DNA of 64,000 nucleotides from Candidatus Manganitrophus noduliformans (GTDB lineage: Bacteria; Nitrospirota; Nitrospiria; SBBL01; Manganitrophaceae). Below are positions 47,713 to 48,904 of the stretch, one piece after another. The stretch covers positions 1,240,001 to 1,304,000 of the forward strand of contig NZ_VTOW01000001.1 of the NCBI RefSeq assembly GCF_012184425.1, given 5' to 3'. Numbering within the stretch: position 1 is the first letter of the stretch; the number at the start of each line of letters is the position of its first letter. The position numbers were made by a program, and so were the translations under genes. The notes under the pieces are model-generated. The model was not told where the DNA came from. It made no database searches and saw only the letters and a list, made by a program, of their open reading frames with translations.

Positions 47713-48219
47713 TCAGATCGCGTCTTCGACAATCCAGAAAAAGTGATTCGGAAAGATTTTTGCCAGAAAGAGATTCTTGTCCTTGTCGTGATCGAAGATG
47801 CGCCGATCGAGGAGATGGTTTGCGAAGCGGTTGTGAAAAATCCGGAGGTGTTCTTGACCCGGCCTTCCCTCCAGCAGAGCGATTGCGCTCAGCTCCGGAA
47901 AGTGTCCCTCCTGAAGGGCTTCCTGAAGGTAGCGGTGTTCCAGACCGGGCAGGCCCCCCTTGTGGAGAACCGGCATGAAAGGGGTTTTCTCCTTCTTGAA
48001 CTGTTTCGACCGTTTTTGAGCCTCTTTCAGTTTTTCCCGGATTTCCGTGGAGGCATCGTATTCGAGGACCACTGCAAAGAGCTTCCCGAACGGGCTTTCG
48101 ATCAGGTAGTCGGAGGGGGCCTTTTTTGTTTTCGATGTTCCCTTGTAGCGGAGAGAGAATCGTTTTAGATAATCCTGAAATGAGGACTCACCTGTTCTTT
48201 TTTCCTTTACTGCCTGCAT
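47713..48219 (-). CDS. hypothetical protein overlapping lexA
   Basis: 168 residues, not recognised. Mostly charged, with a lysine-rich middle (REKLKEAQKRSKQFKKEKTPF) and a C-terminus rich in His and Phe (IFPNHFFWIVEDAI). No membrane segment. It overlaps the 3' end of lexA by 32 bases in another frame and would be translated from the lexA mRNA, so it may be SOS-controlled. Confidence 0.6.
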   Translation of the reverse strand: MQAVKEKRTGESSFQDYLKRFSLRYKGTSKTKKAPSDYLIESPFGKLFAVVLEYDASTEIREKLKEAQKRSKQFKKEKTPFMPVLHKGGLPGLEHRYLQEALQEGHFPELSAIALLEGRPGQEHLRIFHNRFANHLLDRRIFDHDKDKNLFLAKIFPNHFFWIVEDAI

Positions 48220-48829
48220 CCACCATCCTTAATACGGCGACCACTCTTCCCAAAACCTGAACCGATTGATCCTGTCGAACGATGATCGGTTTCATCTCGG
48301 GATGGGCGGGAGATAAAATGATTTCTTTCTTTCTCTTCGTAAAATACTTGAGCGTCGCCTCTCCGTCGACAAGCACCACCGCCATCTCCCCATTTTCCAC
48401 GGTTTGCTCTTTTTGCACCACCACGTAATCTCCGTCGACGATGTGGGCGTCGATCATGCTCTCCCCCTTCACCCGAAGGACGAACGCCGATTCCCGGGCG
48501 GCGATCATCGAATCGAGCAAGAGCTCTCCCTCCATGTTTTCTTCGGAGAGAAGGGGAAGCCCGGCATGGACTCCGCCGAGAATCGGAAGAAGGCGGCCCT
48601 GTCGAGGGGGAGGGGTTTTAATGCGGATCGCTCGCGGTTGTCCGGGGAGACGTTGAATGACCCCTTTACGGACGAGGGTGTCGAGATGTCTCTTGACCCC
48701 CATCGGTCCGGCCAGCCTGAAATGCCGCGCGATTTCACGGAGGGTCGGCGGAAACCCGTGTTCATCCAGGAAGCGTCGTAGATACTGATAGATCGCTTGC
48801 TGTCGTTTTGTAAGAGCGGCTCCCGCCAT
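48188..48829 (-). CDS. lexA: LexA repressor
   Basis: 213 residues from ATG 48829. Upstream frame to 48916 is rejected because it would contain the promoter and operator. Winged-helix DNA-binding domain (TKRQQAIYQYLRRF, PPTLREIARHF), Ala89-Gly90 self-cleavage bond in GGVHAGLP, catalytic Ser124 (GESM) and Lys161 (TLKYF). Represses DNA damage genes until RecA filaments trigger cleavage. The recognition helix (GPMGVKRHLDTL) differs from E. coli LexA, in line with the unusual palindrome at its promoter. Confidence 0.93.
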   Translation of the reverse strand: MAGAALTKRQQAIYQYLRRFLDEHGFPPTLREIARHFRLAGPMGVKRHLDTLVRKGVIQRLPGQPRAIRIKTPPPRQGRLLPILGGVHAGLPLLSEENMEGELLLDSMIAARESAFVLRVKGESMIDAHIVDGDYVVVQKEQTVENGEMAVVLVDGEATLKYFTKRKKEIILSPAHPEMKPIIVRQDQSVQVLGRVVAVLRMVDAGSKGKKNR

Positions 48830-48843
48830 TCCGTCCCCCGGAA

Positions 48844-48859
48844 GTCTACAAGTGTAGAC
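48844..48859 (-). promoter_or_regulatory. palindromic operator, candidate SOS box
   Basis: GTCTACA-AG-TGTAGAC: a perfect 7-base inverted repeat with a 2-base spacer, between the lexA promoter and its start codon. It matches neither the E. coli CTGT-N8-ACAG box nor the Bacillus type. Confidence 0.65.
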
Positions 48860-48875
48860 CTCCCGCGCGATCCTC

Positions 48876-48904
48876 ATCGTAATCATTTTTTCATTCCTTG
48901 TCAA
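48876..48904 (-). promoter_or_regulatory. lexA: lexA promoter
   Basis: On the minus strand TTGACA (48904-48899), 17 bases, TACGAT (48881-48876). The palindrome lies just downstream, where repressor would block initiation or early elongation. Confidence 0.6.

Follow-up and report, generated by a model that had tools for sequence, protein, structure and literature searches.

A lexA gene in a 64,000-nucleotide stretch of the Candidatus Manganitrophus noduliformans genome (hereafter the window, meaning that stretch at its full length) is preceded by a perfect palindrome, and this raises the question of whether the palindrome is the SOS motif of its lineage, through which a regulon could be found, as had been suggested from the sequence (the original prediction), or whether it belongs to one LexA only. 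In LexA systems the repressor shuts off its own promoter by binding the box as a dimer, and after damage it cleaves itself in response to RecA filaments. The analyses presented here indicate that the palindrome is probably the operator of LexA-C, the LexA encoded beside it, and that LexA-C would be one of several parallel, largely insulated LexA circuits, each with its own operator and cassette. Autorepression by LexA-C would in itself be ordinary; what is unusual is the layout, with several LexAs, private operators and apparently one operon each. The locus comprises the following features.

48899..48904, minus strand: -35 hexamer TTGACA of the lexA-C promoter (from the sequence; kept in all six genus orthologues)
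48876..48881, minus strand: -10 hexamer TACGAT, 17 bp from the -35 (from the sequence and the spacing table)
48843-48860, read on the minus strand: extended 18-mer of the LexA-C operator, GGTCTACACTTGTAGACT
48844..48859, no strand: candidate LexA-C operator GTCTACA-N2-TGTAGAC (from the sequence, conservation in the genus and in family f10, and its being the only near-perfect site in the genome)
48188..48829, minus strand: lexA-C, encoding a full-length LexA (TIGR00498, 203.5 bits; alignment of 10 rows)
47713..48219, minus strand: 168-aa protein whose frame shares 32 bp with the 3' end of lexA-C; it is presumed to be the operon's second gene

The gene is a genuine lexA, matching TIGR00498 over its whole length (E 2.6e-60; curated cut-off 110.95 bits). 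The Ala-Gly cleavage pair (A85-G86) and the catalytic serine and lysine (S120 and K157) are invariant in all 10 aligned relatives, and LexA-C matches 27 PDB sequences, LexA repressors foremost, to which the cleavage and catalytic residues could be aligned. Its recognition helix reads AGPMGVKRHL, as opposed to RSPNAAEEHL in the PDB LexA sequences, the latter being presumably that of E. coli LexA, so that the divergence originally ascribed to this helix is supported. The closest named relative is found in SCUR01000234.1 (Candidatus Manganitrophaceae bacterium, 76% identity). On the minus strand, TTGACA is followed after 17 bp by TACGAT, after a further 15 bp by GGTCTACACTTGTAGACT, and then by a GGGGGA stretch and the ATG at 48829-48827, which lies 14 bp from the palindrome. 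Positions 48844-48859 read GTCTACAAGTGTAGAC, with 7-bp arms and a 2-bp spacer, which confirms that a perfect palindrome lies between a good promoter and a lexA start codon. Provided that the predicted promoter is correct, the operator would occupy approximately +10 to +27 of the transcript. The palindrome is most likely the autoregulatory operator of the LexA-C encoded just downstream, in agreement with the role first proposed for it.

Four lexA genes in the window's genome are full-length and score above the family cut-off; they are designated A to D, with a different box at each promoter.

C1:1437412: lexA-A, box GGTATTCATATGGATACC, halves GGTATTCA-TA-TGGATACC
C2:1149704: lexA-B, box AGTATTCATTTGAATACT, halves AGTATTCA-TT-TGAATACT
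In the window: lexA-C, halves GGTCTACA-CT-TGTAGACT
C4:122731: lexA-D, box ATTAGTCATATGGCTAAT, halves ATTAGTCA-TA-TGGCTAAT

Between 2 and 4 full-length matches occur in each of the six genus genomes, the one with 2 being 72% complete. The genes lexA A, B and C share one contig in G005, and likewise in G003, so the paralogues did not arise from faulty binning. In a tree of 51 LexA sequences, from which L060 (a broken frame in G003), L081 and short lexA matches were left out, the genus groups A, B, C and D are each supported. All four boxes follow the common frame xxxxxxCA-N2-TGxxxxxx with differing outer bases, and pairwise differences range from 3 (A versus B) to 9 (C versus D) of 16 positions; the similar boxes A and B could be shared between paralogues. 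Other families of the class have GGTAGNCA (f5) or GGTGTCCA and GGTGAACA (elsewhere). The box table includes 34 of the 40 lexA loci fetched, with box centres picked by hand, and no clear box was seen at L060, L068, L081, L085, L086 or L087.

The recognition helix and the outer box bases appear to vary together, a correlation judged by eye. C-type boxes accompany the helices AGPMGVKRH, AGPKGAKKH or ADPKGAKKH in genus group C and RGPKGAQKH in f10, while VGTRAVEKH pairs with GGTAGNCA and KSTRGVARH with AGTATTCA. The A-lineage LexAs of G001 and G004, which neighbour A in the tree and stand before the same polymerase cassette, have the helix SGTRAVEKH together with GGTAGGCG and GGTAGACA in place of GGTATTCA (helix VGTRGAFKH). 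Among the A-lineage LexAs of the genus, L052 and L061 (GGTAGRC- type box) set against L049, L054, L057 and L065 (GGTATTCA) look like a recent box switch with a helix change.

Palindrome shape alone is weak evidence for an operator, since the window holds six perfect palindromes with 7-bp arms and an N2 spacer; within the 100 bp around the lexA-C start, a 7/7 arm match was reached in 11 of 2000 mononucleotide shuffles. Stronger evidence comes from the conservation of the box at the same position across orthologues. All six genus genomes (Candidatus Manganitrophaceae, Nitrospirota) retain the C box, with some bases changed, ahead of the lexA-C orthologue; the left half-sites and spacers read GGTCTACA-CT, GGTCCACG-TG, GGCCTACA-GG, GGTCTACA-CA, GGGCCACA-TC and GGTCTACA-CC; the right arm matches the left fully in two of the six and at 6 of 7 positions in the other four, and two boxes (L053 and L064) show a matched change in both arms (CCAC...GTGG). 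The lexA-C promoter is also conserved in the genus, and the stretch between it and a divergent promoter has diverged. In family f10 of the same class, GGTCTACA or a one-base variant is present at one lexA in each of four genomes (four of the six f10 lexA loci fetched; L068 and L076 are without a C box). Genus C and f10 C-box LexAs are not joined in the LexA tree, so the box that they have in common may be convergent; a single clade was not rejected (p-AU 0.165), and one ancestral C-type LexA for both is thus neither supported nor rejected by this tree. It seems extremely improbable that the palindrome arose by chance or acts at the RNA level, for instance as a leader hairpin, and is no LexA site. 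The number of such palindromes in the window would fit that explanation, as would the one unmatched arm position in most relatives' copies (six of ten C-type boxes from the genus and f10; for these six, a 6/7 match arises in 125 to 224 of 2000 shuffles), but the position of the palindrome, the sequence conservation in orthologues and the parallel palindromes at the sister lexA promoters argue against it. Moreover, in groups A, B and D, in f5 and at the C-box f10 loci, the palindrome touches or extends into the -10, as expected of an operator; the genus C operators lie 15-17 bp beyond the -10, more downstream than the boxes of the other LexA groups. In groups A and D and in f5 the likely start codon falls in or just after the box centre, and their lexA messages may therefore be leaderless.

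If the box were instead the general SOS box of the lineage, with LexA-C as master repressor of recA, imuB, dnaE2 and uvr genes, it should recur; it is a real element, present at a lexA in all six genus genomes and four f10 genomes. However, for each of the operators A to D the genome holds a single near-perfect match, and this lies at the corresponding lexA. Allowing up to 3 mismatches, the C box has 34 sites in its own genome (one perfect; reversed control, 84), and of the 33 that were classified, seven are intergenic, all with 2-3 mismatches, and a repair gene could not be recognised after any of the seven, products being judged by eye. It should be noted that this classification relied on mechanically called ORFs: L014 is unclassified, and L003 and L252, coding by virtue of 82- and 80-aa ORFs, may be intergenic. 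Likewise, no box-like palindrome was seen at seven of ten recA loci (the seven analysed, four of them from the genus; L215, L219 and L221 were outside the analysis), including the 3 kb before the recA of the window's own genome (L254), or at any of five dinB loci; uvr genes were covered through the genome pattern scans alone. A perfect CA-N2-TG palindrome after recA in L046 (position 2816) was dismissed as coding, as it falls within the start of pilT (SDLHLKVG; by eye). In the own genome PF00817 identifies one gene only, which was taken for dinB, and an ImuB cassette therefore appears to be missing there. Within the phylum sample, GGTCYACANNTGTRGACC with at most one mismatch occurs in just 13 of 295 genomes, at lexA in 4 of the 13 (reversed control, 9 of 295 genomes). 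With three other LexAs and three other boxes in the same genome, a lineage-wide SOS motif is very unlikely, and on the own-genome and phylum scans we reject it; four LexAs with four boxes and a single near-perfect site each indicate the private box of one LexA circuit. Absence from recA and other damage genes and absence from the lexA of relatives had both been named as findings that would count against the original prediction; the former is what was observed as far as the scans reached, and the latter is contradicted by the orthologues.

The suggestion that the box opens a regulon did not hold for near-perfect sites, although LexA-C could have a modest further set of targets through degenerate sites, or targets common with other LexAs. 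LexA sites elsewhere can stray from their consensus beyond the tolerance of these scans, so weak additional targets are possible; published LexA regulons do contain degenerate sites (Leptospira LexA1, in the accessible part of PMC3789691), boxes A and B are similar, and the seven intergenic sites noted above are candidates by position. We nevertheless regard such a target set as unlikely, given the lack of recognisable repair genes behind those seven sites and the scarcity of near matches. The degenerate consensus GTCYACANNTGTRGAC with at most 2 mismatches has its best site at lexA in 10 of 10 genomes, and among these only G036 has a second one-mismatch C site, not beside a lexA. Match totals for this consensus are lower than those of the reversed control in eight of the ten genomes, equal in G034 and higher in G036; in the own genome there are 9 matches as compared with 19 for the control, and the 12-bp core CYACANNTGTRG is present in 2 copies in 5.17 Mb as compared with 12. 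The second core copy (G000:C4:218245-218256, L269) is an intergenic palindrome, AATCCTACA-GT-TGTGGGATT, that adjoins a TTGACA promoter-like sequence and has no recognised gene. For the sister boxes, exact A/B consensus matches are confined to the lexA genes of G000, G002, G003 and G005 among five genomes scanned; in G004, whose LexAs are of other types, this consensus gives one one-mismatch site (C20:379008) and eight with two mismatches. The D-like pattern has matches at lexA promoters only, in three of the five genomes.

Under the preferred reading, in which LexA-C commands an insulated circuit, a LexA-C dimer would bind the box just inside the transcribed region and thereby block transcription of a co-transcribed lexA-C and 168-aa operon. 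DNA damage would then bring about RecA-stimulated self-cleavage of LexA-C at the Ala-Gly bond, leaving the operator free until new LexA-C is made. Each paralogue, A to D, would similarly act on its own operator before its own lexA operon, with little exchange between paralogues, and the genome would run several parallel damage switches, one cassette each, in place of one LexA regulon. A broader proposal, which we put forward tentatively and hold to be nearly as likely as its opposite, is that LexA is no longer the global SOS regulator in this genus: the three to four paralogues of each well-covered genome would be mutually insulated single-operon switches, each with its own module (a PolB2-type operon, a Hel308-like helicase, an ImuA/ImuB/DnaE2-like cassette or the 168-aa protein). 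None of these switches would govern recA, and the operators would form one fixed-frame family whose outer bases change with the recognition helix.

The cassettes headed by the sister LexAs differ in content. The LexA-A operon encodes a Rad51/RadA-like protein (PF08423, 26.8 bits; cut-off 22), a protein of about 100 aa with an MGRT motif and a type-B DNA polymerase (PF00136, 122 bits). An iRadA-PPB2-PolB2 order with lexA has been reported from Leptospirillum ferriphilum (PMC4104785) and, more broadly, from bacteria (PMC11791011), as far as the available portions of these papers show, and the LexA-A operon, a sister cassette and not that of the window, matches this order in having lexA, a RadA/Rad51-like gene, the ~100-aa MGRT protein and the type-B polymerase; the assignment to PolB2 is by gene order and motif, with no PolB2 model. 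At the LexA-A loci L049 and L065 the operator and the start codon of lexA overlap, and the PolB2-type operon is in the same genome. LexA-B and LexA-D each head a helicase of 906-919 aa with DEAD, Helicase_C and archaeal-helicase domain 4, which we call Hel308-like; lexA followed by a Hel308-like helicase of about 0.9 kaa thus occurs in two versions, B and D, which are paralogous but have different operators (L050, L051, L055, L058, L062 and L066). A further LexA in G004 (L063) heads ImuA-like and ImuB-like proteins, both below the NCBI cut-offs, together with an error-prone DnaE polymerase (1248.5 bits; cut-off 939). Its counterpart in G003 has broken frames; because frame breaks in this genome affect recA (L224, L225, L230 and L232) as well as the lexA-imu cassette (L060), they are likely sequencing indels.

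The frame of the C box is shared with known LexA sites. The Gram-positive SOS box has the consensus CGAACA-N2-TGTTCG, with the same ACA-N2-TGT centre and frame as the C box and a half-site of CGAACA versus GTCTACA. The original prediction had set the box apart from those of E. coli, Bacillus and the alphaproteobacteria, and this is supported for the first two by their consensuses. The alphaproteobacterial LexA box, given as GTTC-N7-GTTC in the accessible text of PMC8565304, likewise differs. Closer to home, other Nitrospirota lexA boxes of the form AGTATACA-N2-TGTATA (L145, L169 and L171) have the same frame with a half-site differing from GGTCTACA at bases 1 and 4, and their LexAs belong to a different clade from LexA-C, with the helix [LM]W[PA]AA. 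In the wider sample, where upstream regions were inspected at 36 of 80 lexA loci, GTATACA-N2-TGTATA-type palindromes were noticed at other Nitrospirota and Nitrospinota lexA promoters (L129, L145, L169 and L171), again with this helix.

Private boxes of duplicated LexAs are already known from Leptospira and P. putida, and four in one genome, apparently with one operon each, represent an extreme form. According to the available sections of PMC3789691, Leptospira interrogans LexA2 bound its own promoter only, among those tested, through the box TTGTA-N10-TACAA, and thus resembles the present case as a second LexA with its own motif. In contrast, Leptospira has two LexAs, of which LexA2 is encoded in a prophage-like region and LexA1 binds the promoter of recA (same sections of PMC3789691), whereas the present genome has four, their boxes follow another frame, and no box was found before the recA loci analysed. 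In P. putida, lexA2 heads a lexA2-imuA-imuB-imuC operon (PMC5261740, in the part available) and the likeness is that a lexA paralogue leads a repair cassette and regulates it; the C operon differs in carrying the 168-aa protein, the ImuA/ImuB/DnaE2-like cassette being headed by another LexA (G004, L063). The accessible text of PMC8565304 reports that lexA duplication accompanies motif divergence, puts the number of LexA motifs reported up to 2021 at 17, and tells motif change after duplication as a passage from one regulon to another. If true, four LexAs with different boxes and apparently one operon each would represent a stable alternative, in which damage responses are split into independent modules. 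Under the broader proposal above, the operators would be a natural series from which the LexA specificity code could be read. The 34 tabulated pairs of LexA and box, all on a single frame, would allow direct testing of helix-to-base rules, and would supply candidate orthogonal, RecA-responsive repressor/operator pairs. No such arrangement was found among the best matches, including few subscription papers, in the literature on Nitrospirota LexA boxes, multiple lexA genes and lexA with PolB2 or Hel308.

The 168-aa protein follows lexA-C at all six genus loci, with 74-100% identity to the window's copy, and its conservation between species is slightly above that of the LexA it overlaps. Relatives occur in 2 of 295 phylum genomes, both from the genus; searches returned no Pfam, NCBIfam or PHROG family match, no match among PDB sequences and no relative on the viral contigs searched. 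Its AlphaFold model has a mean pLDDT of 54 (low confidence), and with this model all Foldseek matches are insignificant (best E 0.089); they include YaeQ, EndoMS, SSO0001 and restriction enzymes, several of these insignificant matches thus being nuclease folds. To see in it a PD-(D/E)XK-like nuclease would be guesswork. The C-box lexA of f10 has a different neighbor, being followed by a radical-SAM protein (a cluster of four loci: L069, L072, L075 and L078), which in L072 matches TIGR03916 (putative DNA modification/repair) with 328.5 bits, just below the cut-off of 343.5. A DNA polymerase IV gene also follows the f10 C-box lexA in L072 (by model) and L075 (by similarity).
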